Virus record (IMG/VR): IMGVR_UViG_3300033146_000946
Span: 62,001 to 126,000 of that record
Reading direction: 5' to 3' (one strand)
Length of the DNA stretch: 64,000 nt
Source of the DNA: a virus
A program made the position numbers and the translations under genes. Below are positions 38,460 through 60,533 of this stretch, in pieces (the stretch's first letter is position 1; each line of letters opens with the position of its first letter). The notes beneath the pieces are model-generated. The model saw only the letters and a list, made by a program, of their open reading frames with translations, was not told the origin of the DNA and did not search any database.

Positions 38460-38468
38460 AATCAATCC

Positions 38469-39865: not shown

Positions 39866-40801
39866 TTAAATTGAACTAACTTCACAAGCTCCGCCTGAGC
39901 AAGCAAGTTCACCACTTAAATCGGTATTATCTTGTGTTTCAATTATATCATTAATATTAAAATCCTTAATAGCATTATTTAATTTAGAAATTAAATCAGC
40001 ATATTTAGCTTTTGATATATCTTCAAATGGCATTTGTGGATAAGTACCACCATCTAAAGGAAGAACTGAAATACCATGATAATGTTTTCTATTTTCCCAC
40101 ATCCAATTACCAACTTCTTCCCATTGATTTTTATCAATAGAAACAGTAACTGAAACATTATGAGTATTAGCACCTTCTTTATGACCAGCTTTAATCCATT
40201 TATCGTGTACTAATTTAGTTCGTTCTAAAAGATCAATTGGACTTTCATTTCTAAAAATAGCACCTTCAGGAGCAGCAATTGGTACTGTTAATACTGCTGT
40301 TGTATTAGGTGAGAAATAATCATCTTCTAAAAATTCTTTTGGAAGTAATTCAGAAAGATATTTATAAATTGCTTCATCTTTATTAATTCGCATACGACGC
40401 ACATAATAAGGAGCATGCCATGCATGTATACCAGATGAAGTTTTACCAACTAAACTAGCAGTTCCACTAGGTTTTACTGTTGTTATTCTTTTACCTGTAT
40501 TAATACTAATTAATTCAGCAATTCTTTCATTTTCTTTTACAGCTTCTTTACCAGCTTCTTCCATATCTAATTTAAGTACATCACCAGAAGCAATACCTGT
40601 CATCGAAACACCTAATAAGGCATCATTATCAGCATTTTCTTTCCAATCAGATCTTAGATAATGAAAGTTAGTATAACCAGCTTGCAATGTACCTAAAAAT
40701 GCAGCAGCACGAGCTCTAGCATTATATTCTTCTTGAGAATCAATTCCAGATGCGATAATTTCTGTCAAATTACAATATCCTTTTGATTGTAAACTTATTT
40801 C
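39866..40801 (-). CDS. nrdJ: Class II ribonucleotide reductase, exon 2
   Basis: After intron removal this exon continues from exon 1 with Glu-Ile-Ser (GAA at 40801). It supplies the catalytic Glu363, Cys372 in QSKGYCNLTE, the barrel end and the C-terminal redox pair C663/C668 in LACSGGACEVSSI, spaced as in the Lactobacillus leichmannii adenosylcobalamin enzyme. It encodes 311 residues and ends just before a strong terminator. The spliced enzyme is 673 residues, about 65 shorter than the L. leichmannii enzyme. An ATG-like start inside the exon would give a meaningless fragment. Confidence 0.85.
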   Translation of the reverse strand, partial: EISLQSKGYCNLTEIIASGIDSQEEYNARARAAAFLGTLQAGYTNFHYLRSDWKENADNDALLGVSMTGIASGDVLKLDMEEAGKEAVKENERIAELISINTGKRITTVKPSGTASLVGKTSSGIHAWHAPYYVRRMRINKDEAIYKYLSELLPKEFLEDDYFSPNTTAVLTVPIAAPEGAIFRNESPIDLLERTKLVHDKWIKAGHKEGANTHNVSVTVSIDKNQWEEVGNWMWENRKHYHGISVLPLDGGTYPQMPFEDISKAKYADLISKLNNAIKDFNINDIIETQDNTDLSGELACSGGACEVSSI

Positions 40802-41721
40802 CTATGAGCAGATAAACTAATATCTGACATTTCGACTATATCTTCAACTTTATATAACATACATTTTGGTATATCAGATAAAAATGGTTTAATAAAATTA
40901 TAAAAAAACTTTAAATCGTTTTCTTTACCTTTACATATAATAGATGTTCCATCTTCTCTAGCATCTATATCAAATGTTTTTAAAACATCAATAGCTTTTA
41001 ATCTAAGTTTTTTATCACGTTTACAACATATTGAAATATTTTGATTATATGAACCATCATCTAAAAACCATAGTAACCAACCAAAATTGGTTAATTTAGT
41101 AATAGCTTCTAATTCAGATATAATATCTATATTTCCTAATGGTGTATAATAATCTCCATAAATGTGACCTTGTTTATGTGTTCTTATATTAACAATTGAA
41201 CTAGTTTTAGGATATGCTTTATTTAACATAGAAACTTTCCATTTTAAATATGGAATTTGTTTTTCTCCATGTATAATGCGTAATCCATGACTTTTCTTAT
41301 TATAAGAACCATCTCCCAATAATTGAGAATAAATAATACTTCTATTATCTTCTCTAATAGGTACATAATTTGTATCTAATTTTTCACTTAAAATTTTTAA
41401 TCTAGCTTTTTTAAAAGTAGATACTGAGAAATATCTATCAAATATACCTTTAGTTAAGTTATTAGGTAAATTTAAAGTTTCAAAAAACATTTTACTATTT
41501 GATGATTCTAAAAGTATTTCAATTATTTCTTGTCTACTAGGAAATATATTTTTTATAATATATTCTCTTGGTGACATTTTAAAAATACTTTTAAATCTAT
41601 TATAAATAGTTTTTTCACATACAGAATATTTATTTGTTAAATATTCTATTTTAGTAGCAAAATAAGAATAGTCTTTCTTATTAATTGCTTCTTGTATAAT
41701 TTTATTAAAATCATTTATCAT
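40795..41721 (-). CDS. LAGLIDADG homing endonuclease inside the group I intron
   Basis: A 308-residue protein. The two LAGLIDADG motifs are SQLLGDGSYNK and LLWFLDDGSYNQ, each keeping its acidic residue. The N-terminal 115 residues hold a helix-turn-helix-like segment (SVCEKTIYNRF). Its coding region ends 7 bases inside exon 2, so its last codons cross the 3' splice site, and it also contains the P7-forming S element of the intron at 40834-40844. It should spread the intron into intron-less reductase genes. Start follows a GAGG site. Confidence 0.85.
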   Translation of the reverse strand: MINDFNKIIQEAINKKDYSYFATKIEYLTNKYSVCEKTIYNRFKSIFKMSPREYIIKNIFPSRQEIIEILLESSNSKMFFETLNLPNNLTKGIFDRYFSVSTFKKARLKILSEKLDTNYVPIREDNRSIIYSQLLGDGSYNKKSHGLRIIHGEKQIPYLKWKVSMLNKAYPKTSSIVNIRTHKQGHIYGDYYTPLGNIDIISELEAITKLTNFGWLLWFLDDGSYNQNISICCKRDKKLRLKAIDVLKTFDIDAREDGTSIICKGKENDLKFFYNFIKPFLSDIPKCMLYKVEDIVEMSDISLSAHRK

Positions 41722-44104: not shown

Positions 44105-44854
44105 CTAATGAATATGATAATCGTATAAGTTATTAATAACTCGATCATAATCTAAATGAACTTTTTTAAACATAAATCTAAATCGATGCCACCAAGCACC
44201 AGGTAATTGCATAAGTTTAGAATTATAAGGATGTTCATAACCCATTTCAATAGGTGGAACATCACATACTATATCATGTGTAAAAAATACTCGCAGATAA
44301 TCGATTGAATTATTTACCAAATATTCAGCAAGATTTCTATCAGCTATTCTAGGTTGACCATATGTTGTAACATATAATGTTAAATGATCAGCATAGTTAT
44401 TTAATTTTAACAAAGTAGCAGCCATTAATGCTAACGCTCCACCTCTAGAATGACCTATAAAATTATTATCTTTTGCTGTATTTAATTTTTCTTTAATTAA
44501 ATCTATTAATTTAATAGATTTTTTATTTTTAGTATTATATTTATATAAATCTAATAAAGATAAATAAAAACCTTGATGAAATTTAATATCATTAATATTA
44601 ATTCCTATAGCATCAAAATTATTAAGCCAATCTATAACATCATTAGATCCAAGAAATATAAAATTTATTTCTTTAGAATTTTCTGCGATATACATCACAT
44701 CATTTCCTATAACGTATCTTTTAAAATGATATACATTATTTCTTTGATTTTTTAAATGTAATTTGATAGTTGCAGCATGTGCTCCATCTGTATACATTTT
44801 TTGGGCAAAATGATAAAGTTGCCAATGATTAAATGTTCTATCTAATTTATTCAT
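44105..44854 (-). CDS. Class 3 lipase-like alpha/beta hydrolase
   Basis: A 249-residue protein. The nucleophile elbow is FIGHSRGGALA, the Asp is in FTHDIVCDVPP and the His in GYEHPYN, which is the order seen in class 3 (fungal-type) lipases; YGQPRIADR is also typical. It could hydrolyse membrane lipids during lysis or entry, but no signal peptide is visible. The plus-strand ORF at 44573-44755 is a shadow. Confidence 0.75.
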   Translation of the reverse strand: MNKLDRTFNHWQLYHFAQKMYTDGAHAATIKLHLKNQRNNVYHFKRYVIGNDVMYIAENSKEINFIFLGSNDVIDWLNNFDAIGININDIKFHQGFYLSLLDLYKYNTKNKKSIKLIDLIKEKLNTAKDNNFIGHSRGGALALMAATLLKLNNYADHLTLYVTTYGQPRIADRNLAEYLVNNSIDYLRVFFTHDIVCDVPPIEMGYEHPYNSKLMQLPGAWWHRFRFMFKKVHLDYDRVINNLYDYHIH

Positions 44855-47792: not shown

Positions 47793-50700
47793 TTATTCAA
47801 AATCATGATTAACTTTATCTAATTTAACTTTATCTGGAATATCATCTAAACCAATATCGATAAATAAAGATTGTTGTTTAACACGAGAGATGTTAAATTT
47901 ATTTAACATCTTATCTATTTGTTTATTATAATAACTAATATCTATTTCAGATATGTCCTTAGCTAATTTAATAAATTTATAATTTTCACCAGTTTTTTTC
48001 TCATAAAACTTTTTAAATTTTGGATCAGTTAAAGGTTTACACGTAATAATGTAAGGAATAGTTGTATCAACTGCAGGTTTAGAATGAGTAAGATGTTCAT
48101 ATTGAGCTGCTAAAAATGCAACTTGACCAGTTTTATCATCGTATTCATCTAAATCTTTATTTAATCTAATCCTATATTCAAAATCCTTTAATTCTAATCC
48201 AGTAAAATCATATGCTTCTCTAATAACTTCTTCCATTGGTTTATTATTAAACCAATATTCAATAGCTAAATCACGAGCCCTATCTTGTACATAACAATTA
48301 CGAGATGATTTTAATGAAGATCCATGTAAGTGAGTATGTCCTTCAATTTCAACAACATAATTTTTCATAGCACAAAAATAAGCTGGTCCTACAATATCTA
48401 GTTCCATTTGCATATAATTTTCATCAATACCAAATTGATTAATCATTAATTGATCTAACCATTTATTAGTTTCTTCTTCAGAAATCCATTTATCAATAGC
48501 AAGACCATCAGTATTATGTAAAACTATATTACCTAATGCTGTAACAAAAGTTCCATCATCAGTTGATATATCATAAACATATGTATCATTTTTATTAGAT
48601 ATTATTATATTATTTTTAATAACTAAACCATTAGAATAATCTTCATCATTATATCTAACACATCTATATGTATTACCATTATTAACTAAATATATTTTAC
48701 AATCATTAAATATAAATTGTATACCAGCAGCTAATGTTTTAGATGAGGTATCAATATATCTATTTTTACGCATACTATAAGGTTTAATTGCATACGTTGA
48801 ATCAGCTAATAAACCACCAATAAATGCATCACCTTTTTCGACATTGTTTATAATATCAATAGGCACTTTACTATATCCATTTTTTGTATATAATTTTTTA
48901 ATTAAAAACTCATATATTTTAAAACTATTTTTACCCCAAGGTATAAGTTCATAATGATTTCTAAATTCTGTTGTTCTAAATCTACATTCAAATTTTGAAC
49001 CAATATATAAATTTAGTAATTTAACAATGTTTGTTTTTATATGTTTATATTTTTTACTTAAAATTAATTTTGTTTTTAAAGTTCTAAATCTAGTTTTATA
49101 TGTATCTATTTTAATATTATTAAGTAAAAATCCATATAACCATGCTAATTCATTATTTATAAAATTATTATTTGGTATATAAAAATAATCAGTTAATTCA
49201 ATATGACTTTTATTTACGATAATATCTTTTGGTGTTAATTCTTCTTCATTATTATTAAATAAAGAATGATCTTCTGTTATATCAACAAAACCATTTTTTA
49301 TTCTAGTTCTATATATATTTTTTGATACTTCATGTCGTTTCGTATAATTAATATCAGCCCAACCATGTCTAGTTAAAGCTTTAATAGGTTCAACTACTTC
49401 ATAATTTTTAGCATCACCTCTATGTATATCTTCAATAGGAATTATATCTACCATATTCATAAATTTATTTTTAACCCAAATAGGAGTATCACCAGTTACA
49501 CTATCGAGTTCTACTAATTCATCTTCGTATTTAACAATAGTTTTACCAGTAGTATATCTACACATTGCTGTAATAGTTGCACCAGTTATAGTATCACCAT
49601 ATGTTGAACTTTTTAAACCTTGAATACCATAAATAGAATTCAAAATAATTTTAATAGCAAGCTGTTGAGAATCAAGCATAGGAACTAATTCAGGATTAGT
49701 TTTAGCTGCTTCTTTCATCTCTTTTTTAATAGCTTTACGTTCAGCCCAAAGCATCTTAATTTCTTTTTTAAGAATACCTTCAATATCATTTCTAACACGA
49801 ACTACGAGATCTACACCAAAGTTTTTATCTGGAAATGAATGCCAATCATATTTAGCAGTCTTTTTAAATTTGTATTTACCAGTATAAGGTCTAACTTCAA
49901 TTAATTTAGTTGTATCAGGTCCTAAATTAAAAGTACATATAGCAGAAGGATACATAGATGTAAAGTCAAGTTTATATGTATCTTCAAATTTACCATATTT
50001 ATATAAACCAACGAGTGCACCTTGATATTTTAATTCTTTATTATCATATTTTCTAAATTGATATCTAGTACCAGTTCTAGAATTATATTTACTAAAATTA
50101 GTTTCAGTAGATATAAGTTTATTTTTATAAAAGTTACGAGCTAAAAATATTTTAGGTATAAAAGATGGATAACTATTCATAGTATCATTTAAAGATACTT
50201 GAACTTTTTCAGCAAGTGTTATATCATTTCTAATATAAACAGCACCTACATGTTCAGTTCTAATAACATCTGCTTTTTGATATGACCATAATAAATCTGG
50301 ATTTTCAGTTCTAACTTTTTCAGTATTTCTAATAGCATCTTCAAGTTCAACATCAGCATCTTTATCAAGTGGTACTTTATAATGTCGTGCTAATGTTTTT
50401 AATGATTTATTTTTAAGACCATATAATGATTGATCTTTAAGAACTTTAAGATACATATCATAATGTATTCTACCATTAATAAATATTTGACCTCTGTCAT
50501 TTATAAATGGAGATTTATTTTCTCGAGCAAAACCTTGCATAGATACTTTTCTAATTTTACATCGATTATAAAAATAAGGAAAGTCAAATATTTCTGAGTT
50601 ATATCCAGCTAATATATCAACATCCCATTTTCTCATAGCTTCTACAAAATCTTGTAGAATAAATAAATCTGTTTTATCTTCGTCATAATTATTAAGTAAT

Positions 50701-51185
50701 GTATAATTTAACTTTTCCTTTGATCCATCAGGATGATAATCCCAAATAGAAAATCCTATACAAATAATAGGTTGTTTTTCTGGTTTTGGGAATACATCAT
50801 CACCAACAGTTCTAGTCTCAATATCCCAGAACATTATTCTAATTTTTTCTTCATGAGGAAATTTTAAAATAAAATCTGGATCACTAATATATAATTGTTC
50901 GACATAACTATTATTATAAATTTGATTTATTTTATCTTTATGTCTATCAAGAAATTCTCGTTGTTGAGCCGTATCATTAAATACGACTCTTTTATAATTA
51001 GTTAATTCATCATCTGGGATTTTAGTCCATTTTTCAATAGCTTTATTTGAGACAGAAACTTCTGGAAAAGCTGACTCTTCCAGAAGATTAAAAGGTTTAA
51101 AAGGAAAATTTGTATATACAAATTTATTATTATGAAAGATCCTCAGATTCGTTTTCGTTGCTTTCAACAGTAGCGGTACTTTCAT
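47793..51185 (-). CDS. Family B DNA polymerase carrying an intein
   Basis: 1130 codons, of which 330 are intein; the mature enzyme is 800 residues. The 3'-5' exonuclease has Exo I FWDIET (120-123), Exo II AGYNSEIFDFPYF (about 193) and Exo III YQKADVIRTEH. Polymerase motif A is KLDFTSMYPS (Asp407), motif B is KIILNSIYG (about 512). Motif C (DTD) is made by joining Asp561 to Thr892-Asp893 after intein removal. It is the replicative polymerase. Start follows GAGGAAG and overlaps the upstream gene by 56 bases. Confidence 0.9.
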   Translation of the reverse strand: MKVPLLLKATKTNLRIFHNNKFVYTNFPFKPFNLLEESAFPEVSVSNKAIEKWTKIPDDELTNYKRVVFNDTAQQREFLDRHKDKINQIYNNSYVEQLYISDPDFILKFPHEEKIRIMFWDIETRTVGDDVFPKPEKQPIICIGFSIWDYHPDGSKEKLNYTLLNNYDEDKTDLFILQDFVEAMRKWDVDILAGYNSEIFDFPYFYNRCKIRKVSMQGFARENKSPFINDRGQIFINGRIHYDMYLKVLKDQSLYGLKNKSLKTLARHYKVPLDKDADVELEDAIRNTEKVRTENPDLLWSYQKADVIRTEHVGAVYIRNDITLAEKVQVSLNDTMNSYPSFIPKIFLARNFYKNKLISTETNFSKYNSRTGTRYQFRKYDNKELKYQGALVGLYKYGKFEDTYKLDFTSMYPSAICTFNLGPDTTKLIEVRPYTGKYKFKKTAKYDWHSFPDKNFGVDLVVRVRNDIEGILKKEIKMLWAERKAIKKEMKEAAKTNPELVPMLDSQQLAIKIILNSIYGIQGLKSSTYGDTITGATITAMCRYTTGKTIVKYEDELVELDSVTGDTPIWVKNKFMNMVDIIPIEDIHRGDAKNYEVVEPIKALTRHGWADINYTKRHEVSKNIYRTRIKNGFVDITEDHSLFNNNEEELTPKDIIVNKSHIELTDYFYIPNNNFINNELAWLYGFLLNNIKIDTYKTRFRTLKTKLILSKKYKHIKTNIVKLLNLYIGSKFECRFRTTEFRNHYELIPWGKNSFKIYEFLIKKLYTKNGYSKVPIDIINNVEKGDAFIGGLLADSTYAIKPYSMRKNRYIDTSSKTLAAGIQFIFNDCKIYLVNNGNTYRCVRYNDEDYSNGLVIKNNIIISNKNDTYVYDISTDDGTFVTALGNIVLHNTDGLAIDKWISEEETNKWLDQLMINQFGIDENYMQMELDIVGPAYFCAMKNYVVEIEGHTHLHGSSLKSSRNCYVQDRARDLAIEYWFNNKPMEEVIREAYDFTGLELKDFEYRIRLNKDLDEYDDKTGQVAFLAAQYEHLTHSKPAVDTTIPYIITCKPLTDPKFKKFYEKKTGENYKFIKLAKDISEIDISYYNKQIDKMLNKFNISRVKQQSLFIDIGLDDIPDKVKLDKVNHDFE
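48513..49502 (-). mobile_element. Intein in polymerase motif C
   Basis: Residues 562-891. It starts with Ser562 (SVTGDTPIWV), has a block B-like TEDHSLF, and ends VLHN with Asn891, followed by Thr892, giving Ser/Asn/Thr splice chemistry. The insertion site is the same as in Thermococcus-type polymerase inteins whose insert starts SVTGDTE and ends VHN before TDG. The central region has LAGLIDADG-like blocks; the first (LAWLYGFLLNN) lacks the usual acidic residue, the second (FIGGLLADS) keeps it. So protein splicing is likely intact, but the homing endonuclease is probably weakened. Confidence 0.9.
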
Positions 51186-51552
51186 TTTCAGCTTCCTCTT
51201 GTTTTTGCATATAAGTGTTTAGTCTTTCTGTAAGACTTCTAATATCATCATTGTCTATTGATTTACCAATATTAGTGATAATACTAATTGTGTCATTAGA
51301 AATGGTATCCAATTCATCTAAGATATTTTTATTATCTTTATAATCATTTAGCAATTTAGCATTAACAATCATTTTAGATAGAATATCAAATAGTTCATTG
51401 AATCCCATACTAGTAGCAGCAAGAAGTGCACTTGTAATTTGATCATCATTAAGATCTTTTGTTTCTAATTCATTGATAACATTTTCATAAATTTCACCAA
51501 TTTTTGGGTTTTCTGATACACTATGATACATAGTATTGTTGTTTTTACTCAT
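51130..51552 (-). CDS. Unknown 140-residue acidic helical protein
   Basis: Not recognised. Mostly helical with an acidic, low-complexity C-terminus (EEAENESTATVESNENESED), so an adaptor or polymerase-associated protein is possible. It overlaps the polymerase start by 56 bases and the upstream gene by 8. Confidence 0.4.
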   Translation of the reverse strand: MSKNNNTMYHSVSENPKIGEIYENVINELETKDLNDDQITSALLAATSMGFNELFDILSKMIVNAKLLNDYKDNKNILDELDTISNDTISIITNIGKSIDNDDIRSLTERLNTYMQKQEEAENESTATVESNENESEDLS

Positions 51553-51976
51553 CTTTTAATTCCTTTAGTTTAAGTAAGATATTAACCAATTCATCATTTA
51601 AATCAGTTGTAATATTATTAACAGATTGTTCAATATATTTTCTAGATAATGTCATAGATATTTTAGCAAGATCGTCATAATCAAGATTAGAATCTTTAAT
51701 TATTTTTTCAATTGCTAAAATTAATTTATAAGAATATTCTAATTGCCCAATTGCATTAGTCAATAATTGTAAACTCATTGCATATGTAGTTCCAATCATA
51801 TCTTTTTGCGTTTCTTCATCAGGTAATATACCTTCATCGTTAACAAATTGCGATTTAAATAAATTATAATATTCATCAAATTCAGTTCTAACTTTTTCAC
51901 CCAGAGTAGAATAATCGACATTTTTTAAATTTTCAATAATGTCATCTATCTCAACAGGTTCTGTTACGTCTATCAT
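51545..51976 (-). CDS. Unknown 143-residue helical acidic protein
   Basis: Not recognised. Similar in size and helical style to the protein encoded next downstream, with which it overlaps; the two may have arisen by duplication or form a complex. This is inference. Confidence 0.4.
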   Translation of the reverse strand: MIDVTEPVEIDDIIENLKNVDYSTLGEKVRTEFDEYYNLFKSQFVNDEGILPDEETQKDMIGTTYAMSLQLLTNAIGQLEYSYKLILAIEKIIKDSNLDYDDLAKISMTLSRKYIEQSVNNITTDLNDELVNILLKLKELKDE

Positions 51977-51986
51977 ATAATATCCT

Positions 51987-52349
51987 TTATATTAAAGCCC
52001 AATCTCGAATATTCTTAGAATATTTAAGTTTCTTTTTATTAGTATTTAGTTCTCGTAAAATCGCTTCATCTGATATAGAATCATATCCTATACATTTAAA
52101 TCTTTTACCAGTTTTAACATTAAAATAATCTTGTCCTTTATGAAAATTTGCATGTGTTAAAATTAATCTTTTATGAGAATCATATTTAGCATTTGTTCTA
52201 TATAAAATAAAATCTTCACCTATATTATCTCTTAATTTTTCAACTAATTTTCTAGAATTAGTTAATAAATAAATTTCATCAAATAAAATTTCACGTCCAG
52301 TTTCATCATTTAATGTTACATAATCGAAATGTGATACAGTAAATTCCAT
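51987..52349 (-). CDS. Unknown 120-residue protein
   Basis: ATG 52349 has a GGAGC site; the frame to 52397 would run into the upstream gene. Mixed alpha/beta (EFTVSHFDYVTLNDETG, EIYLLTNSRKLVEKLRD). No family recognised. Confidence 0.4.
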   Translation of the reverse strand: MEFTVSHFDYVTLNDETGREILFDEIYLLTNSRKLVEKLRDNIGEDFILYRTNAKYDSHKRLILTHANFHKGQDYFNVKTGKRFKCIGYDSISDEAILRELNTNKKKLKYSKNIRDWALI

Positions 52350-52371
52350 ATTAGTGCTCCTATTATAAATA

Positions 52372-52893
52372 CTATTTAATGATATGTAATCTTTCAAAAC
52401 TAAGAGTTTCTCTTAGTTCTTCAATCATATCATTTATATATACATTATTTTTATATAAAGTATTCTCTTTATCTATCATTAATTTAATAATATTAACTAA
52501 ATGTATTACAACACCTTCTGTCAATATTAAATCATTAATATCAGATTTAGCATGAGTAACTGTTATATAATATAGTATATATAAAATTGAATCAATTTTC
52601 AAGTTATTTTCATAATTATTCGATATTATATATTTTATAATAGAATTATAGATATAACTGTAAGGTAAAGCATTTACGATTTTTGATTTATTATTAATTT
52701 TAGATTTTAATAAACATATTTTATTATCATCTATTAAAATATTAAAATTATTATTATTTAATTCAGTAGAATATGTAGATAGAATCAAATCTAAATCAAT
52801 ATCATTAATAATAGTTATCCCAGAATTTTTTAAAAAAATTGATCTAGGATAACCATAATCTGCTATAAAATCAATTAATGAACTAATGTTCAT
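52372..52893 (-). CDS. Unknown 173-residue protein downstream of the Ubl gene
   Basis: Not recognised. Helical, many Ile/Asn/Tyr residues. It starts 2 bases after the Ubl stop, so it is co-translated with it and could act with that system. Confidence 0.4.
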   Translation of the reverse strand: MNISSLIDFIADYGYPRSIFLKNSGITIINDIDLDLILSTYSTELNNNNFNILIDDNKICLLKSKINNKSKIVNALPYSYIYNSIIKYIISNNYENNLKIDSILYILYYITVTHAKSDINDLILTEGVVIHLVNIIKLMIDKENTLYKNNVYINDMIEELRETLSFERLHIIK

Positions 52894-52895
52894 TA

Positions 52896-53114
52896 TTAAC
52901 CACCAATTAATTGATTCATAATAGTAATAGTTTTTGCATCCTGAAGTTCATCTTCTAATACAAAATCTTTCATATAAGGTGAACCATTAATATAAATTGT
53001 CTTATTATTTCTTTTTTCAGAATTAATAAAATCAATTGCTTCTTTTAAATCGTAATCTTTTACAACTGGGCCATTTGTATCAATCATTTCGATTGTAATT
53101 TTTTTGTTACTCAT
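52896..53114 (-). CDS. Small ubiquitin-like (beta-grasp) protein ending in Gly-Gly
   Basis: 72 residues. Strand ITIEMIDTNG, helix LKEAIDFINSE, strand TIYINGSPY, and the end LEDELQDAKTITIMNQLIGG. A terminal Gly-Gly after a short beta strand is the hallmark of proteins activated by E1/ThiF enzymes (ubiquitin, ThiS, MoaD, PRTRC protein C types). An E1-like gene is in the same operon. The stop comes directly after Gly-Gly, so no protease is needed to expose it. Start overlaps the GroES stop (TAATG). Confidence 0.6.
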   Translation of the reverse strand: MSNKKITIEMIDTNGPVVKDYDLKEAIDFINSEKRNNKTIYINGSPYMKDFVLEDELQDAKTITIMNQLIGG

Positions 53115-53395
53115 TATTCATCTCCTAATATAATTAAAATGTCAGACTCATCCATTATTAAATATTTTTTATCTCTTAATTCAATTTCAGTTCCAGCATA
53201 CTTCCCATGTAATACTGTATCACCTATTACTGCGGTCATATCATAATCAGATGTACCTGGACCAGTAGCAATCACTTTTGCTAATTGTGGTCTATCTTGA
53301 GCTTGATCTGGAATATAAATTCCACCTTTAGTAATTGTTTCTTTTTCGATAGGTTCTAATAAAATTTTAGAACCTAATAATGTTACATTTTTCAT
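53114..53395 (-). CDS. groES: GroES-family co-chaperonin
   Basis: 93 residues with GSKILLEPIEKETITKGGIY, VIATGPGTSDYD, DTVLHGKYAGTEIELRDKKY and LIMDESDILIIL, matching GroES from end to end. Because no GroEL is seen, it probably caps the host GroEL, as T4 gp31 does. The mobile loop is KETITKGGIYIPDQAQDR, which has an IY pair as in other GroES. Coupled to the Ubl gene. Confidence 0.85.
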   Translation of the reverse strand: MKNVTLLGSKILLEPIEKETITKGGIYIPDQAQDRPQLAKVIATGPGTSDYDMTAVIGDTVLHGKYAGTEIELRDKKYLIMDESDILIILGDE

Positions 53396-53398
53396 AAA

Positions 53399-55702
53399 TT
53401 AACCTTTATTTAATTCATCTTCTAAATTATAAATTGAACTAGCAATTACACTATCATTTTTAAGTGAAAGAAGTTTAGATACAACTGTATCATAACCAAC
53501 CGTTGATTTCATTTTTGATTGATCAATCATACATATATATGTACCATTAATATATATTTCTTTATCTGTTTCAGCAACAATATTATCTAATTCTGGATTC
53601 ATAAAAACAAATGATTCTTTTAAATTATATGCTATAACATAATTTTTACCAGATAATCCTGTAACTTTAATACCATCATATTCAACTTTATTTTGTTTAT
53701 CAAAATATTTCACATAATTACAATCTAAATCTTCAACTTTTTTAGTTAAAAATTCTTTCGATTTATCAATATATAATTGATATGATTTATCAATCATAAT
53801 TTTATATTTAATATAATCAAATTTAGTTTCACATGATTTAAATACATGATTATTAATATATTCCATATTGCTAATTGATGATCTGTAACTACTATCTCTA
53901 GTTTTTAATATACAAATATTATATAATGTATTAAATACTTTTTTGCCTTTAATTTTAATATCAACACCATCAATATTCATTTCATATATATTTGTTTTAT
54001 CAGTTGTTTTAAATTTAAAATAATTTTTATCTATAAAATAACCTGAACTTAAACCAATAAATACTGACAAACCTTTTTTTGTAATATTATCAATGAATAA
54101 TTGAGCAGATGCTTGTGAATTATAACATGACATTTCTTTTAATACATTTATAATTTCATTTTTATTAATTCGTTTTTCATTAATATATGTAAAATTACTA
54201 CCATTCTTATATAATTCAATTTTAATATTTACTGTATTATTAAACTCAATAAATATATCACGTGATTCTTTAGTATAAGTAATTACCGATTCCAGATGAT
54301 TAAATATTTTTCTAGTTAATTGTTCAATTATTTCATCTTCATTTGTTTGTTTTCTAAAATATAATACCATATATTCATTTGCTAATGTATATAATCTTTC
54401 TTTTAATGATTCATCATTAAATTGAATAGCAAAATCGTTATATGAAATTTTACCTTTTTCATGTTCATATAAAATATCATCTGTAATTTTAACATCATCA
54501 CCAGTTGATTTTTGTTTTTTAATTACATATAAATATTCATTAGATAAATTCTTTAAACCTTTTAAAACATCTTTAAAAGTATGTTTATATTTATGTGAAG
54601 GTAAATATGTGCTTAAACGTAATGTTTTATCTGAACCTTCAAAATATAAATTATCTATTTTAATATTTTCACTCAAAATTTTATTTAGAGATTTATCTAT
54701 AACTTCTTCGATATCAAAAGTATGAACTTTTGGATCAGATGTAATAGTAGTAAATTGAAATTTACTACCATCACCAAATGAAATTATATATCTACCTTCA
54801 TCTAAATAATTAAAAGGTACACCTCTAAAAAGAACATTAACATAATTAATAGAATTTAACATAATAAAATCATTAGCATTATGATATAAGTCCATTGTAT
54901 CAGAACTATTATTAGTTGCTTTATCAGAATGTACAGATTTAACAATACGTTCAGAATCAGGATCTTTAAAATATGATGTTACCATACAATATCTTTTATT
55001 TTCAATATTAAATATTTTATCTATTTTAGATATTATTAATATATTATCAGTTCTATAAGAATCAGTAGAAGGATTATTTAAATTAATATCTATAAATTCT
55101 AATGGATTTACAAATGATAATTTTAATTTTTTCGCAGTATTATTAAATTTTTTAATAATATTATTTTTAATTTCAAGTTCTTTATTAAAAGTAAATTTAG
55201 CTAAATTTGTTAAAGTATCATTACTTATAATATCATCATTATATTTATCCATTAAGTCTTTAAGTTCATATACTTTTTGTTTATTAATTTTATAACTTAA
55301 AGTTGTTTTAGTAATCATTAATGTTACTATTTCATTTATAGTTAATGGTGAATTTTCTGATATTTCTGTAATAAATTCATATAAATTTTCAGTTGATGTT
55401 TGTTCTAATTTATAATTAAATCCAGTATCAATAGCTTTAGTTTTTTCAATAATAAATCCGAAATTATATGAATAAGTATCTTCTGTATATGATATAATTA
55501 AAATTAAATAACTTTTCTTTTTTATATCAATTGAAAATAAACTAAAACCATTTCTGGTATTTAATATATCTGATATATCATTAGTAAATTTTTCTACTAC
55601 ATCATAATTATTTTTAACTTCATCTAAATTTAAATAATTAAAAAATAATAGATCAAAAAATTCTTTATCTGAATTTTGTCCAGACGTACTAAATGTTTTC
55701 AT
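53399..55702 (-). CDS. Unknown 767-residue protein between E1-like and GroES genes
   Basis: Not recognised. The N-terminal 120 residues look like an alpha/beta domain. The rest has several beta-rich sections (RYIISFGDGSKFQFTT, VFIGLSSGYFIDKNYF) and a C-terminal section (KNYVIAYNLKESFVFMNP). No Cys-motif typical of a RING or HECT ligase was found. It could be the conjugation target, an E2/E3 analogue, or unrelated. Confidence 0.4.
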   Translation of the reverse strand: MKTFSTSGQNSDKEFFDLLFFNYLNLDEVKNNYDVVEKFTNDISDILNTRNGFSLFSIDIKKKSYLILIISYTEDTYSYNFGFIIEKTKAIDTGFNYKLEQTSTENLYEFITEISENSPLTINEIVTLMITKTTLSYKINKQKVYELKDLMDKYNDDIISNDTLTNLAKFTFNKELEIKNNIIKKFNNTAKKLKLSFVNPLEFIDINLNNPSTDSYRTDNILIISKIDKIFNIENKRYCMVTSYFKDPDSERIVKSVHSDKATNNSSDTMDLYHNANDFIMLNSINYVNVLFRGVPFNYLDEGRYIISFGDGSKFQFTTITSDPKVHTFDIEEVIDKSLNKILSENIKIDNLYFEGSDKTLRLSTYLPSHKYKHTFKDVLKGLKNLSNEYLYVIKKQKSTGDDVKITDDILYEHEKGKISYNDFAIQFNDESLKERLYTLANEYMVLYFRKQTNEDEIIEQLTRKIFNHLESVITYTKESRDIFIEFNNTVNIKIELYKNGSNFTYINEKRINKNEIINVLKEMSCYNSQASAQLFIDNITKKGLSVFIGLSSGYFIDKNYFKFKTTDKTNIYEMNIDGVDIKIKGKKVFNTLYNICILKTRDSSYRSSISNMEYINNHVFKSCETKFDYIKYKIMIDKSYQLYIDKSKEFLTKKVEDLDCNYVKYFDKQNKVEYDGIKVTGLSGKNYVIAYNLKESFVFMNPELDNIVAETDKEIYINGTYICMIDQSKMKSTVGYDTVVSKLLSLKNDSVIASSIYNLEDELNKG

Positions 55703-55714
55703 TTTTTTATCCTT

Positions 55715-56287
55715 TTAAAATATATGATTTAATTCTGTTGGTAAAATATTTTTTCTACTGTATGTTAATAGAGCTTGTGCTAAAATTTGAGCAATAATTC
55801 TATTGCCTAATTCAATTTCATTTTTTTCTAATTGATAAGGAAATTGACAACTGAAACTTTCAGTAGAATCATCGATTGTATTTAGATAATCATTTGTATC
55901 TGAACTAAATAAACCAACTGCTCTACCATTAGATCTAGAGTCAATAAATGGAATATTATTTTCCTTATAATTTTTGAAAACTTCTCTTCTAATAATATTA
56001 TTATCAGCACAAATAAGAATTAAATTATATTCTTGTAAGTCAGAATAATTAACTCGTTTTACTTCATATTCCAAGTTAAAATATCTTTCTTCTAATGCTT
56101 CTACTTTATAAGAATCAATATCACTAGATTCGAAATTTTGATATCTAATATTTTTCATTTCAACATTATCATCATCGACAGCAATAAACTCCCAATCTGA
56201 TTCAAATTGATCATTATCTATTAGATTATCAAGTGTTTCTATAAAATAAGAACCGATACCACCAGCTCCTATAATTAATACTTTCAT
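55715..56287 (-). CDS. ThiF/E1-like adenylyltransferase
   Basis: 190 residues. VLIIGAGGIGSYF is the nucleotide-binding loop. Next come DDDNVEMKNIRYQNF (the D-x-D-x-V...N...R...Q motif), K at SYKVEAL, and ICADNNIIRREVF, the C-x-D...R motif. Cys occurs at FSCQFPY, a possible thioester site. It is shorter than full E1 enzymes and similar to ThiF/PRTRC-F sizes. It should adenylate the C-terminal Gly of a Ubl such as the 72-residue protein downstream. Confidence 0.7.
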   Translation of the reverse strand: MKVLIIGAGGIGSYFIETLDNLIDNDQFESDWEFIAVDDDNVEMKNIRYQNFESSDIDSYKVEALEERYFNLEYEVKRVNYSDLQEYNLILICADNNIIRREVFKNYKENNIPFIDSRSNGRAVGLFSSDTNDYLNTIDDSTESFSCQFPYQLEKNEIELGNRIIAQILAQALLTYSRKNILPTELNHIF

Positions 56288-56296
56288 TTTTATCTC

Positions 56297-56890
56297 CTAA
56301 TACTTAATTGTTGTATATTCATTTATTTTTCCATCAATTATTTTATTTGTAATTCTTATATTACAAGAACCATTGATTATTGTGTAATTTAAAAATCCAC
56401 TACATGAAAATTGTGATGTTTCTTCTGTTTTATATAAATTAGTAACATCATATTTATCATCTAATATAAAAAATAAATGATAACCTTGTCTTTTACTAAT
56501 AGGATTTTTAGAAGAAATAAATAATTTATAATCGATTAATTTATCACCTAATAATTTTTTATAAAATTTATATACTAAATCTAATCTATACATATCTGTA
56601 TCATTAAATTTTTTATTTTTTGCATCTTTTCTTATTATATAATTTAAATTAGAATGATATATTTTATTAATATTATCTATATCTAATACAAATAAATTAG
56701 TATTTTTTATATCTGTCAATATTCCAAAACTATATGATTTAGTAATTGGACTAATATTATGATTAAGTATTTCATCTAATGTAACTTGTTTATATAATCT
56801 ATATTCACTATATTCATGTTCTATATCATATTGTACTAATGTATAATTATATTTATTTATTAAATCTAAATGTATATCAGAAACCAACAT
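56297..56890 (-). CDS. Possible archaeo-eukaryotic-type primase-like protein
   Basis: About 197 residues from ATG 56890, which has a GAGGAT site (a frame to 56911 is worse). LFVLDIDNINKIYH gives an hhhDhD motif. KNPISKRQGYHLFFILDD gives a Gly-x-His then acidic strand, as in primase-polymerase cores. The rest is not similar to known families. The phage already has a TOPRIM primase, so this would be an extra enzyme. Assignment is tentative. Confidence 0.4.
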   Translation of the reverse strand: MLVSDIHLDLINKYNYTLVQYDIEHEYSEYRLYKQVTLDEILNHNISPITKSYSFGILTDIKNTNLFVLDIDNINKIYHSNLNYIIRKDAKNKKFNDTDMYRLDLVYKFYKKLLGDKLIDYKLFISSKNPISKRQGYHLFFILDDKYDVTNLYKTEETSQFSCSGFLNYTIINGSCNIRITNKIIDGKINEYTTIKY

Positions 56891-57467
56891 CGTATTTATC
56901 CTCTTTATCATTATTTAAAATAGATTTATTTTTAACAGATATATATTTTCTAACATAATTTGACATGAGATTAGTTTCAATACATATCCTATTTAATTTA
57001 TAATTTTTAATACTTGATTTAGTTATTATATATTGTTTATATTCATGTTCTTCATTATAATTTAAATAAAATATATTTAATATATTAATAGGAATACCTT
57101 CAGATATTGGTTTAGAACTAATATCTAAATTTGTTACAAATTCTATTTTAACTAATTCATTAAAATTTAACTTCGATAATTTATCTAATAATTTAGTTTT
57201 ATCATATGAAATTAATAATGGAACGTTTAATATATAAATATTACTTTTATTAATAACTTTATGTCTTAAATTAATTTTACTAACTTTAGTATCTTTTTTA
57301 AAATATAAAGTTAGATTGTCGATATTATATCCATTAAATACATTTAAATATGTTGTATTTTGTGTTCGTTTTAATAATAAACTAACTGGTTCATTTGATT
57401 TTTCATTACTATATAATATAAAATTAGGTATACCAATTAATTTTGATATTTCATTTATAATAGACAT
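56877..57467 (-). CDS. Unknown 196-residue protein
   Basis: Not recognised. Alpha/beta composition with several beta strands (TYLNVFNGYNIDNLTLYF) and a basic C-terminal part. It overlaps the next gene by 14 bases and may be its partner. The plus-strand ORF at 57316-57501 is a shadow. Confidence 0.4.
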   Translation of the reverse strand: MSIINEISKLIGIPNFILYSNEKSNEPVSLLLKRTQNTTYLNVFNGYNIDNLTLYFKKDTKVSKINLRHKVINKSNIYILNVPLLISYDKTKLLDKLSKLNFNELVKIEFVTNLDISSKPISEGIPINILNIFYLNYNEEHEYKQYIITKSSIKNYKLNRICIETNLMSNYVRKYISVKNKSILNNDKEDKYDVGF

Positions 57468-57469
57468 AA

Positions 57470-58060
57470 TTAACTCTCAATCAAAGTGTTATAATAATTA
57501 GAAATAATTTCCCAATCTTCTTTTAAAATACTAAGTTTATAATTATCATCTTCATATCCAGTTCTTTTATTATAATAATCAATATTATAAGTTAATATAA
57601 CTGGTATATCATCATAATTATATACAACTTTACCATGATCCTCTATAATGTTAGGTTTTTGATTCATAAATAATTCAGCTGAACTATCATCAAATGTAAC
57701 TATTAATTTAGGACCAATTATTTCAATTAAATCGTAAAATATTTCTCTTGATTTTTTTATAGTTTTTCTAGCAGCACCAAAACTTTTAGATGGTTGCGCA
57801 TAACATATAATATAATTAGTTATATTATATTTATCTAATATTGATATAAAAAATTGTTTCTCAAAATCAGCATTAAAAAAACCATGATTAGTTATAAATG
57901 GAAAAATAAATAATACACAATTATTAAAATTTTTTTTATTACCTTTTATAATTGTAAATTTACCTTTACCATTTTGATCTACTTCTAATAATTTTTTATA
58001 TTTTTCTTTCATTTCATTTAATCTTTGATTAACTGATAAATTACTACTAAACAAATCCAT
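57470..58060 (-). CDS. Unknown 196-residue alpha/beta protein, possible uracil-DNA-glycosylase-like fold
   Basis: ATG 58060 follows GGAGAG; the frame to 58105 starts upstream of it. The sections VLFIFPFITNHGFF, ARKTIKKSREIFYDLIEIIG and PKLIVTFDDSSAELF have a pattern like the centre of uracil-DNA-glycosylase-type proteins, but the active-site motifs are not convincing. Best kept as unknown. Confidence 0.4.
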   Translation of the reverse strand: MDLFSSNLSVNQRLNEMKEKYKKLLEVDQNGKGKFTIIKGNKKNFNNCVLFIFPFITNHGFFNADFEKQFFISILDKYNITNYIICYAQPSKSFGAARKTIKKSREIFYDLIEIIGPKLIVTFDDSSAELFMNQKPNIIEDHGKVVYNYDDIPVILTYNIDYYNKRTGYEDDNYKLSILKEDWEIISNYYNTLIES

Positions 58061-58367
58061 TTTCTCTCCATATTTTAAATGCTTTATTAAGATTAACACA
58101 ATCATTTTTAGTTAACATTATTTCTGATTCATCATTTTCATCAGTTGATTTAACTATATTTATTAAATTATCTAAAACATCAACTGTTTTATCCCATAAT
58201 AATTCACCTATAATTTCGTGTAATGTAGATATTTTAATTGTTACCATTTTATATAGATAATAACAATCTATAATAACAACTAAATCATAAATAGTTTTTA
58301 TCATTTTAATATCGTATCTTGGTGTGTTTATTATAGGTTTATATAATAATTTTCTAAAATTAATCAT
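58047..58367 (-). CDS. Unknown 106-residue protein
   Basis: ATG 58367 follows a GGA site inside the end of the upstream gene; ATG 58379 lacks one. Helical protein starting MINFRKLLY, a variant of the recurrent MNLR start. It overlaps the next gene by 14 bases. Confidence 0.4.
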   Translation of the reverse strand: MINFRKLLYKPIINTPRYDIKMIKTIYDLVVIIDCYYLYKMVTIKISTLHEIIGELLWDKTVDVLDNLINIVKSTDENDESEIMLTKNDCVNLNKAFKIWRENGFV

Positions 58368-58797
58368 TTTTAGTTCCATTTAAAAATTTTGATAGTGCAA
58401 GATATTCTCTATAAGTTATATTTTTATAATTTTGTTGTGTTATAAAATAATTATTATTATTAATATCTATATCATTATAATTAAGTGTAATATTAAATAA
58501 ATATTTATTAAACATACCTATTATAGCATTATTATTTATAATTGATCTATCATCATTTGAATTAGTATGAATTGAATATATTTTATATAATAAATCATTT
58601 AATAAATTACTTTCAATTATAAAATAATAATAAGCATAATTATTACAACCATCACAAACTTTGAATTCAGGTAAATTAATTTTTAAATCATCATAACTTA
58701 AAATATAATATTGTATTGTTTGCATAGTAGAATTAAATTTTAAACCACATACATCACAATATTTAGATTGTTTTAATTTACCATATCTCAAATTCAT
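58360..58797 (-). CDS. Zinc-ribbon protein, 145 residues
   Basis: N-terminal CDVCGLKF and KVCDGCNNY form a CxxC...CxxC metal site in residues 14-55; the rest is helical. The start overlaps the helicase stop (ATGA). It begins with MNLR. Confidence 0.5.
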   Translation of the reverse strand: MNLRYGKLKQSKYCDVCGLKFNSTMQTIQYYILSYDDLKINLPEFKVCDGCNNYAYYYFIIESNLLNDLLYKIYSIHTNSNDDRSIINNNAIIGMFNKYLFNITLNYNDIDINNNNYFITQQNYKNITYREYLALSKFLNGTKND

Positions 58798-60533
58798 AAT
58801 CCCATTTCCTTAACAAATTGAGGTTTTTTATTACCAGAATAAGTTATATATAATCGTTCTTTTGCTCTAGTTATACCTACATAAAATAATCTACGTTCAC
58901 TTTCAACCACATCAGCAACTCTCTCATCTAATTTCATTTTCCAATTAGCGAAAGGTATAATGACCATTTCTGATTCTCCACCTTTAGCACCATGAATAGT
59001 TGATAACATTATTTTAGCATCTTCATTTTGTACTTCTTCTTTACCATCTAATCCAAAATTATTACATAATTCTTTAATTGAATCAGTTGTTATTTCATAA
59101 TCTTCAGCGATATCTATTAAAAAATCAGAAATAGCTTGAGGTACATCAAATGATTTAATCATATAATCTGGAAAGATTTTTAATAATTCATCTAATGATT
59201 TATTTTTTTCAGCTAATTTACAAAATTCACTTTGTAATTTAAAAGCTTGTATCATTCCTCTTTTAATTTTTTTATTAGCATCAGCTAGTCGAGATACTTG
59301 AGAATAAAATGGTTCATCTTCTACAATAACATCGAACATATTTAATTGTGGTGAATCACTTATACTTTCAACTATATTATTAGTTTTTTGTTTAATTAAT
59401 TCAACAGTTGTAGTACCTAATGCTTTCATACCTTTAGCTGCAATTTCTAAATCATAAATATCATAATCTTTTGCTGCTATTTTCATAATAGCAATATAAA
59501 CTCGAAAAGCAGATCTATCAACTAATTCAGTAGAATCATTAACTGTGTAATTTAATCTTGCTTTTTTTAATTGATATTCTAATTGCATTTTATTAGTTCT
59601 ATCACGATATAATATTAATATATCTCTATTTCTATTAGTTCTACATAAAGATACTATATAATCTATTTCAGATAAAGGATGATTAGTTTGATAGACATGT
59701 ACTATTCCATCTGTTTTATCATATGCTCTTAAATCTATTTTAGAATGAGTTATATTATGTTCAATAAGATTTCTTGAATATTTAACTATATTATTTTTAG
59801 ATCTAAAATTTAATCCTAAATTAACAACATTACATTTAAATAATTTAATAAATTTATCAACATTTCGAGGTTTAGCTCCTCGAAATTCATATATAGCTTG
59901 TGACTTATCAGCAACACCAATCATATGAGATTCATAATTATAATATAATTGTTTTAAAAATTCTAATTGTGCTAATGATGTATCTTGTAATTCATCAACT
60001 AAAATATGTGTATATGTAAATTCAGGTTGTTTTTCTTTAATAAATTCAATACCATTAAAAATAATATCATCGAAATCGTACATATTATATTTTTCTAATT
60101 CGTTATTATATTGTTCAGTATATTCACATGATCTTTGAGGATAATTAGATTTTGTAATACTAATTTCATTTTTAATTCTTTCAAATTCAGACTTATCTTT
60201 TTTACAATCAAATATTTTTCTTATAATCATATTAGATTTATTTGTATCACAAATATTAAAAGATATTCCGTTTTGACGCATTAGTCTATAAGCAATTGAA
60301 TGAAAGGTTCCACCTGAAATTCTATCAGAATTACCAGCTTTATCAATAATATCTTTTGCCGATTTATTAGTAAAAGTAATTAATAATACTTTATTATTAG
60401 AATTTTGTTGTAATATTAATCTAGCTATTTCTGCAAGTGTTGTACTTTTACCACTTCCAGGACCAGCCATAATATATGTATTTTGTTTTAGTGAGCTTTC
60501 TATAGCTTCTTGTTGTTCTTTAGTAAATTGCAT
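58794..60533 (-). CDS. UvrD/Rep-family (superfamily 1A) DNA helicase
   Basis: A 579-residue protein. Walker A MAGPGSGKSTT near residue 18, motif Ia FTNKSAKDI, motif II VDELQDTSLAQ, motif III GVADKSQAIYEFRGA, motif IV FRSKNNIVKY, motif V IHGAKGGESEMV and motif VI RRLFYVGITRAKERLYI are all present. It should unwind DNA 3'-5' in replication or recombination. Ends with TGA, overlapping the zinc-ribbon gene start. Confidence 0.88.
   Translation of the reverse strand: MQFTKEQQEAIESSLKQNTYIMAGPGSGKSTTLAEIARLILQQNSNNKVLLITFTNKSAKDIIDKAGNSDRISGGTFHSIAYRLMRQNGISFNICDTNKSNMIIRKIFDCKKDKSEFERIKNEISITKSNYPQRSCEYTEQYNNELEKYNMYDFDDIIFNGIEFIKEKQPEFTYTHILVDELQDTSLAQLEFLKQLYYNYESHMIGVADKSQAIYEFRGAKPRNVDKFIKLFKCNVVNLGLNFRSKNNIVKYSRNLIEHNITHSKIDLRAYDKTDGIVHVYQTNHPLSEIDYIVSLCRTNRNRDILILYRDRTNKMQLEYQLKKARLNYTVNDSTELVDRSAFRVYIAIMKIAAKDYDIYDLEIAAKGMKALGTTTVELIKQKTNNIVESISDSPQLNMFDVIVEDEPFYSQVSRLADANKKIKRGMIQAFKLQSEFCKLAEKNKSLDELLKIFPDYMIKSFDVPQAISDFLIDIAEDYEITTDSIKELCNNFGLDGKEEVQNEDAKIMLSTIHGAKGGESEMVIIPFANWKMKLDERVADVVESERRLFYVGITRAKERLYITYSGNKKPQFVKEMGL

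Follow-up and report, generated by a model that had tools for sequence, protein, structure and literature searches.

Why would a bacterial virus carry, within one operon, a protein that resembles the E1 activating enzymes and a second, very small protein that is predicted to resemble ubiquitin and that ends in Gly-Gly? Both genes lie in the 64-kb stretch of DNA analysed here (the window), which is bases 62001-126000 of a linear virus record of 147,061 bases in total (IMG/VR record IMGVR_UViG_3300033146_000946; the contig). The first codes for a 190-residue E1/ThiF-like adenylyltransferase (window positions 55715..56287, minus strand) and the second for a 72-residue predicted ubiquitin-like protein (Ubl; 52896..53114, minus strand). 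The answer that we favour, with a probability of about 0.4, is that the two are a minimal working E1-Ubl pair for protein tagging of the Urm1/SAMP kind. The E1 would use ATP to adenylate the C-terminal glycine of the Ubl, the Ubl would be moved onto Cys147 of the E1 as a thioester or an acyl-persulfide, and it would then be handed on to lysine residues in proteins of the phage or its host with no dedicated E2 and no JAB protease, as in the case of Urm1/Uba4 and the archaeal SAMPs. No phage JAB protein would reverse the tag, and since the Ubl is made already mature, no processing protease would be needed. We favour tagging because it uses the parts that are observed and needs no missing one. 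The order of the genes, the Gly-Gly end, the homology and kept residues of the E1 and the lack of a JAB match in the contig are observed, and the fold of the Ubl is predicted; interaction of the two proteins, activity of the E1, modification of proteins rather than sulfur transfer as the outcome, and the nature of the targets are inferred. Conjugation is offered as an option and not as a result.

Is the 72-residue protein a ubiquitin-like protein? An earlier note on this DNA, made from the letters alone, had guessed at a beta-grasp fold. A single-sequence AlphaFold2 model of the protein is a beta-grasp (mean predicted local distance difference test score, pLDDT, 84.6; four of the five models are above 83 and the fifth is at 52.5), with strands at residues 5-12 and 15-22, a helix at 23-35, strands at 38-42 and 45-47, a short helix at 54-58 and a last strand at 62-67 (order E-E-H-E-E-h-E), followed by a low-confidence tail that ends LIGG. 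Foldseek comparison of this model with the PDB gave 922 matches at E values up to 10, none of them below 1e-3; the 50 best PDB rows listed start at 2.3e-3, have query TM-scores of 0.40-0.60 and are mostly ubiquitin-like, and they include SUMO (often as a fusion tag), ISG15, Ddi2, Get5, ubiquitin itself and, as the 49th row, a bacterial complex of E1, E2 and Ubl. VIA-align comparison of the Foldseek candidates gave Z values of up to 5.5, middling ones for which the program carries a warning (ISG15, the Ras-binding domain of Raf, UFM1 and SUMO1), and the MoaD rows were slightly below those of ISG15, UFM1 and SUMO1. In the viral structural list a giant-virus ubiquitin-like protein and a phage protein stand at the top, also with none below 1e-3, and the Ubl-bearing protein of phage cr111 appears at an E value of 0.28 and a probability of 0.13. 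The guess is thus borne out by the model and its ubiquitin-like structural matches, the fold being other than the non-beta-grasp one that would have spoken against it, and prediction supports a ubiquitin-like beta-grasp protein with a free C-terminal Gly-Gly. No credible sequence relative of the Ubl was found, and it matches no Ubl model of Pfam or NCBIfam; its lowest E value, 0.0015, was to an NCBIfam model of pyrimidine reductase and was set aside, the score being 18.3 bits where the cut-off is 226.

The E1-like protein matches Pfam PF00899 (ThiF) with an E value of 2.9e-11 and 43.4 bits, above the cut-off of 28.1, and it matches two NCBIfam models below their cut-offs, TIGR02356 (ThiF) at 1.1e-10 and TIGR03736 (PRTRC_ThiF) at 1.7e-9 (37.3 bits, far below 144.75). 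Its best blastp match in a set of 30 proteins is the ThiF protein of cr111 (1.8e-9), and its closest matches include ThiF proteins of the PRTRC type from phages and plasmids. Nine of its residues (G7, G9, G12, D38, D40, N46, Q50, K61 and D95) match active-site positions of MoeB and ThiF. When 29 E1-like rows were aligned, the window protein included, G7, G9, D38, D40, K61 and D95 were identical in all 29, N46 was present in 28, and Q50 and C147 in 26 each. D40, N46, Q50, K61, D95 and C147 correspond to D64, N70, Q74, K86, D130 and C187 of the Escherichia coli MoeB and, in the ThiF of that species, to D61, N67, Q71, K83, D127 and C184, the last of which we take to be the conserved cysteine that links ThiS. 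By this alignment C147, one of only two cysteines in the window protein (the other is C93), is the candidate transfer cysteine. Covalent joining of ThiS to a conserved ThiF cysteine is described by Iyer et al. 2006 (PMC1779556). A tree of the 29 rows puts the window protein on a long branch (2.28) beside the crAss-like and MoeB rows, a weakly supported placement (81/53) that carries a long-branch warning and is not used here as evidence.

In what company do other phages keep such an E1? We compared 16 phage E1 loci drawn from tblastn, family searches and scans (ME3, Rctr197k, cr111, Arash, D69, L014, L016, G024, G006, G010, KLEB27-3, crAss001, FpV4, L152, DAC15 and cr106), leaving out G014 (a near copy of G010), L015 (ME3 again), the short duplicates L050-L054, duplicate RefSeq or D148/D181 rows, and the MD-2021a records, whose neighbours are bacterial chromosome genes. 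At 15 of the 16 an open reading frame (ORF) with a JAB motif lies within 6.5 kb of the E1 gene, or within the extent of the locus where this is shorter, and at none of them does that stretch contain a non-nested ORF of 45-129 residues ending in Gly-Gly. The window is the reverse of these loci in both respects, with a small Gly-Gly-ended Ubl present and a JAB motif absent within 6.5 kb. That related phage E1 genes stand in cassettes with JAB genes, often with E2-like and Ubl genes as well, speaks for reading the window genes as a pair. The sixteenth locus, of Acinetobacter phage ME3 (L008:2733-5843), has a gene annotated as PRTRC_A (JAB) whose reading frame breaks off at the JAB motif's first His. 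Beyond it lie a group I intron (Rfam RF00028, 81 bits, 3859-4195), ORFs with Cys pairs and then an ORF that is perhaps the remainder of the gene, so that the intron may be seated in the JAB active site.

The phage cassettes are of two types. The PRTRC-like type recalls the PRTRC system (PRTRC_A, a JAB protein; PRTRC_B, E2-like; PRTRC_C, a Ubl; and PRTRC_ThiF), which in our reading is operon type 6d of Iyer et al. 2006. Bacillus phage KLEB27-3 is an example, with matches that are all below cut-off to Prok-E2_D (3.0e-4), PRTRC_B (0.0012), PRTRC_A (3.1e-7) and PRTRC_ThiF (7.9e-31; 107.2 bits with TIGR03736, for which the cut-off is 144.75). In the crAss-like type the order is a beta-grasp-like N-terminal domain, a protein of about 400 residues with a conserved HSH stretch and a cysteine, JAB and ThiF, where the beta-grasp and E2-like assignments were made by eye. 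The Ubl domain of this type has ...KIRSG/KIKSG-x or ...KSGG at its end, in most cases followed by an extension. Phages cr111, crAss001, FpV4, DAC15 and cr106 (L010, L150, L151, L153 and L154) have what looks like a full Ubl/E2-like/JAB/E1 cassette, in which JAB could remove the Ubl extension, and an annotated uracil-DNA glycosylase gene lies near the cassette in four of these five (cr111, crAss001, FpV4 and cr106). Fourteen plasmid and bacterial E1 loci (two plasmid loci and 12 others) were also compared. A JAB match lies within 3.5 kb at eight of these 14 and one has no ThiF ORF; none of the 14 has a small Gly-Gly-ended ORF within 3.5 kb. In the account of such bacterial neighbourhoods by Iyer et al. 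2006, E1-like genes that are not fused to JAB always had an adjoining JAB gene, and a subset of type 6e has another domain in the place of JAB. An E1 without a JAB is unusual among the phages examined and known elsewhere.

Could the Ubl carry sulfur and not tag proteins at all? The E1 would then adenylate the Ubl, a thiocarboxylate would be formed on it, and the sulfur would go to a nucleoside or metabolite that serves as acceptor in phage or host, in the manner of ThiS and MoaD. C147 stands in the column of ThiF C184, and over its final 34 residues the Ubl aligns gap-free with Escherichia coli ThiS; the score of the global alignment was reached by 13 of 1000 shuffles that kept the Gly-Gly (225 of 1000 shuffles reached that with MoaD), so kinship to ThiS is only suggested. 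The lack of a convincing E2 or JAB in the contig also fits a sulfur carrier. We searched the whole contig, a record that is perhaps incomplete, for six families, each of which was found in 11 to 14 of 14 control genomes. ThiS (PF02597, matched in 13 of the 14 controls), Prok-JAB (PF14464), rhodanese (PF00581), Aminotran_5 (PF00266, cysteine desulfurase), ATP_bind_3 (PF01171) and Cpn60 (PF00118, GroEL) all gave no match. The missing ThiS-family, rhodanese, desulfurase and ATP_bind_3 matches argue against a sulfur carrier, although host enzymes could supply these functions. The earlier note's remark that thiamin and molybdopterin genes are lacking is supported, in that none is seen near the E1 gene. 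The window has no tRNA gene, and related phage E1 genes lie close to JAB genes; both facts count against sulfur carrying, which we regard as rather doubtful.

Are the partners present but too diverged to be recognised? The 767-residue protein encoded beside the E1 (53399..55702, minus strand) or the 173-residue protein encoded beside the Ubl (52372..52893, minus strand) might be an E2-like protein or a substrate, in place of the large protein of crAss-like cassettes, and would then complete an E1-E2-Ubl cascade. The place of the 767-residue gene is like that of a gene for a 394-520-residue protein with a conserved cysteine, found directly before JAB in the crAss-like and Flavobacterium phages, G024 and L152. 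Pairwise hhalign comparison of the 767-residue protein with the cr111 and G024 members was, however, at chance level. Hidden Markov models (HMMs) built from the E2-like, JAB, Ubl and helical proteins of other cassettes found nothing convincing among the 174 non-nested ORFs of the contig. The three E2-like-group models found nothing convincing there (the lowest E value of any cassette model, obtained with filters off, was 2.6e-4 at 13.5 bits for the crAss-type E2-like model and a 143-residue ORF at 51545-51976), the best match of the three JAB-group models was 0.0088 (8.8 bits), and a model of seven phage PRTRC_B-like proteins reached 0.032 at best. A diverged complete cascade is in our estimate improbable. 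The 767-residue protein was also tried as an E2-like or helical PRTRC partner by single-sequence hhalign against 11 cassette proteins and rejected, the results being at chance (P 0.21-0.53).

The small protein does end in LIGG (C-terminus TIMNQLIGG), as the earlier note stated, but is that end a signal or a by-product? Glycine is 4.9% of residues, so that 0.41 of the 174 ORFs would be expected to end in Gly-Gly by composition, and one does; the chance of such an end among the five ORFs of the operon is about 1.2%. A Gly-Gly end is not rare contig-wide, and its position in this operon is rare. The two GGT codons lie 5 to 11 nucleotides before the ATG of the 173-residue gene, and the stop codon of the Ubl falls into the space that separates them from it. 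In a set of 119 gene pairs that lie close together on the same strand, the upstream protein has a Gly within its last three residues in 25 and ends in Gly-Gly in only one, the Ubl. The tail could have arisen as a ribosome-binding site, and such an origin would be no proof of uselessness. These facts bear on the idea that the pair is a remnant of a PRTRC- or crAss-like cassette that has lost its JAB and E2, with a decaying E1 and a Gly-Gly that is a by-product of ribosome binding. The short E1, its missing arginine (below) and its long branch agree with decay, the GGT GGT is positioned to act as the ribosome-binding site of the 173-residue gene, and in 25 of the 119 pairs the upstream protein has a glycine near its end. 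On the other hand, nine active-site positions and C147 are kept despite strong divergence, the two reading frames are intact and each is preceded by a ribosome-binding-like site, and just one in 119 coupled upstream proteins has the full Gly-Gly; we consider a remnant no more than an outside chance.

What weighs against tagging itself? The conserved arginine column of E1-like proteins (MoeB R73, ThiF R70) holds Tyr49 in the window protein. This arginine and the zinc-binding CxxC pairs have functional roles in ThiF and MoeB, and MoeB R73 and an N-terminal Arg presumably contact ATP. The earlier note's claim of a ThiF/E1-like protein stands as to the family (PF00899 above cut-off) and the nine active-site positions, but the arginine that it quoted is R48, one residue before the conserved column. 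Its proviso that the nucleotide site should not be broken touches only this one arginine, which is itself absent in 12 of the 29 rows (Arg 17, Gly 5, Asn 5, Ala 1, and Tyr in the window); the other positions are kept. An in-frame TAG precedes the window E1, which opens with the first Rossmann strand and stops shortly beyond the last helix. The segment before the first strand is missing, as are the C-terminal strands, and at 190 residues against 251 (ThiF) and 249 (MoeB) the protein is about 60 residues shorter. The altered arginine and the shortness count against tagging and sulfur carrying alike. A single-sequence model of the E1 reaches a pLDDT of only 36.4, the GGT GGT codons overlap the ribosome-binding-like site of the next gene, and the lack of ThiS and rhodanese matches in the contig counts here too.

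Homologues that could show the pair to be conserved also failed to appear, which adds to the points just given. None of the Ubl was found by tblastn in 50,697 phage records, in a back-translated scan of IMG/VR or, in a search without a positive control, in 26 related records (defined below); a degenerate scan for [IVM]-hydrophobic-N-Q-hydrophobic-I-G-G-stop gave eight stretches, none with a Ubl-like frame. These scans rely on short exact patterns that relatives may escape. No homologue of the 767-residue protein was found either, in searches of which one had no positive control. A JAB-less E1 is moreover not unique, there being no JAB match within 3.5 kb at five of the 14 plasmid and bacterial loci (L161, L162, L164, L166 and L168). 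SAMP conjugation proceeds without E2 or E3. Urm1 conjugation needs no E2 or E3 either, and archaeal Urm1 conjugation is E1-dependent, according to PMC12645042, but that source also has Urm1 conjugation rely on sulfur supply and transfer to Urm1 and on the sulfur-transferring Cys397 of Uba4. Given this reliance, tagging may coincide with sulfur carrying, and host sulfur enzymes would then be needed.

How does the pair compare with the systems already known? Like PRTRC, the window has a small Ubl gene in the E1 operon; unlike PRTRC it has no JAB or recognisable E2, its Ubl falls outside the Pfam and NCBIfam Ubl models and ends in Gly-Gly, and GroES and the 767-residue protein stand there instead. 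Its ThiF is below the PRTRC_ThiF cut-off, and there is neither a JAB gene in the operon nor a recognisable PRTRC_B/Prok-E2_D protein. With the crAss-like and Flavobacterium phage cassettes it shares the phage setting, the absence of Arg at the Tyr49 column (Gly there), the same cysteine and a uracil-DNA glycosylase-like ORF nearby, but in those the Ubl has a C-terminal extension or a KIKSG-x end and JAB and E2-like genes are present. As in ThiS-ThiF and MoaD-MoeB, a beta-grasp protein ending in Gly-Gly goes with a single E1 domain whose C147 is the equivalent of ThiF C184. The window E1 differs from theirs in its lack of the zinc Cys (CxxC) pairs and of MoeB R73 and in being much shorter, and there is no pathway gene seen and no Pfam ThiS family match. 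Urm1-Uba4 and the archaeal SAMP-UbaA pairs likewise consist of an E1 and a mature Gly-Gly Ubl with no dedicated E2, and they differ in that the window pair is viral, has no rhodanese domain on the E1 and is known from genes alone. With the bacterial conjugation systems Bil and type II cyclic oligonucleotide-based antiphage signaling system (CBASS, with Cap2) the window E1 shares a distantly similar adenylation domain (Cap2 chains, E 0.0013 at best); the window E1 is a single 190-residue domain with no E2 fusion, and the contig gave no convincing E2-like match and no JAB match. An E1 with a Ubl is of a kind already known, and a phage form that lacks JAB and E2 and whose Ubl is made with a mature Gly-Gly is a variant without counterpart among the loci compared.

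E1 genes in JAB cassettes, often with E2-like and Ubl genes, occur in crAss-like, Flavobacterium, Acinetobacter, Salmonella, Vibrio and Bacillus phages. Among the titles and abstract openings of the open-access literature matches listed (subscription literature lay outside the search, so that an earlier description may exist), no account of a phage E1-Ubl cassette was seen; the matches for PRTRC and phage were by title papers on bacterial genomes, plasmids or physiology, and the one paper matching both crAss and ThiF was unrelated. The sole earlier phage case found is the Ubl of lambda-type tail assembly in Iyer et al. 2006 (PMC1779556). The window pair is the simplest form among the loci compared, two genes and a ready-made Gly-Gly, and an active pair would offer a two-protein model for E2-free protein tagging and for the uses to which bacterial viruses put such tags. 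A bolder form of the tagging reading would have a constitutively mature, E2-free and protease-free viral Ubl attached irreversibly by a one-domain E1, marking host or phage proteins in the course of infection or jamming host Ubl defences (Bil, CBASS), with the co-expressed GroES and 767-residue protein as cofactor or target; we think this quite improbable.

The two genes belong to a tight run of five minus-strand genes, as the earlier note described, with the ORFs at the positions it gave and intergenic gaps of -1 to 12 nucleotides. The order is E1, the 767-residue protein, GroES (93 residues, 53114..53395, minus strand; PF00166 at 2.2e-22, phrog_3188 at 2e-19), the Ubl and the 173-residue protein. 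The stop codon of GroES overlaps the Ubl start (TAATG), the 173-residue gene starts 2 nucleotides past the Ubl stop, and all five starts are preceded by a purine-rich stretch like AGGAG, AAGG or GGTGG that ends 6-8 nucleotides upstream. Two terminator-like sites occur in 51000-58900, both outside the run, and promoter-like sites do not exceed shuffled sequence in number (94 against a shuffle mean of 101.6). Does the neighbouring GroES belong with the pair? The earlier note had found the coupling of Ubl to GroES striking. Among the best 80 of at least 268 IMG/VR GroES relatives, with up to 4 kb examined on each side, none has a ThiF match and none a small (50-120 residues) Gly-Gly-ended ORF, and GroES was rejected as a conserved functional partner; with no GroEL in the contig either, the coupling looks incidental. 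The ordinary reading is that a phage GroES serves the host GroEL, and the neighbourhood is taken as shared expression. The earlier interpretation thus holds for the predicted Ubl fold, the Gly-Gly tail and an E1-like partner with most active-site residues, and gives way on GroES.

Neither of the other two proteins of the run has a convincing family: the lowest E value of the 767-residue protein was 0.0026 with SMC_N (17.7 bits, below cut-off), and the 173-residue protein had no convincing match. Residues 692-721 of the 767-residue protein resemble residues 21-45 of the Ubl (YDLKEAIDFIN...KTIYINGS; hhalign P 5.3e-4), the sole signal that this protein gave. It is the best of 173 ORFs in this comparison, its score was reached by 6 of 500 shuffles, and it is possibly a second beta-grasp piece, or chance. 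Downstream of the run lies an ORF of 136 residues from TTG (51987..52397, minus strand) with no convincing family; by eye, its likelier start is an ATG farther into the frame, preceded by an AGGAG stretch. Directly upstream of the E1 gene a 204-residue ORF (56297-56911) with no convincing family match has a VLDID ... SKRQGYHLFF pattern that, by eye, is reminiscent of archaeo-eukaryotic primases. Farther upstream is the ORF weakly like family-4 uracil-DNA glycosylase (57470..58105, minus strand; TIGR00758 at 8.9e-4, 19 bits against a cut-off of 125), which has no Pfam match at 1e-3.

The contig is AT-rich (the window has 23.1% GC) and carries genes for terminase, family B DNA polymerase, a UvsX-like recombinase, DNA ligase and ribonucleotide reductase; from this gene set the source is judged to be a large tailed phage with T4-type replication genes. 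Its closest named terminase match is that of Moorella phage MTATph1 (30.8% identity over 85%). A terminase scan gave 31 loci, five of them at 58-80% identity on contigs of 6-35 kb, and a ThiF family search of 26 records (24 of these 31 and two named phages) found ThiF in five, with none in the five close terminase kin. Terminase matches at 76-80% come from the metagenome samples 3300026544 and 3300028045. In the DNA polymerase scan the best 80 of 487 relatives were all at 22-26% identity. The DNA polymerase B gene (47793-51185) has by eye an apparent intein at its DTDS motif, between '...ELDSVTGDT' and '...VLHNTDG', and Pfam has no family for the insert. The window also has a GMP reductase gene (37365-38465; NCBIfam NF003470, 422.6 bits, above the cut-off of 397), which in a phage of 23% GC would shift guanine nucleotides toward adenine ones, a LAGLIDADG endonuclease-like ORF (40795-41721) and a class 3 lipase-like ORF (44105-44854).

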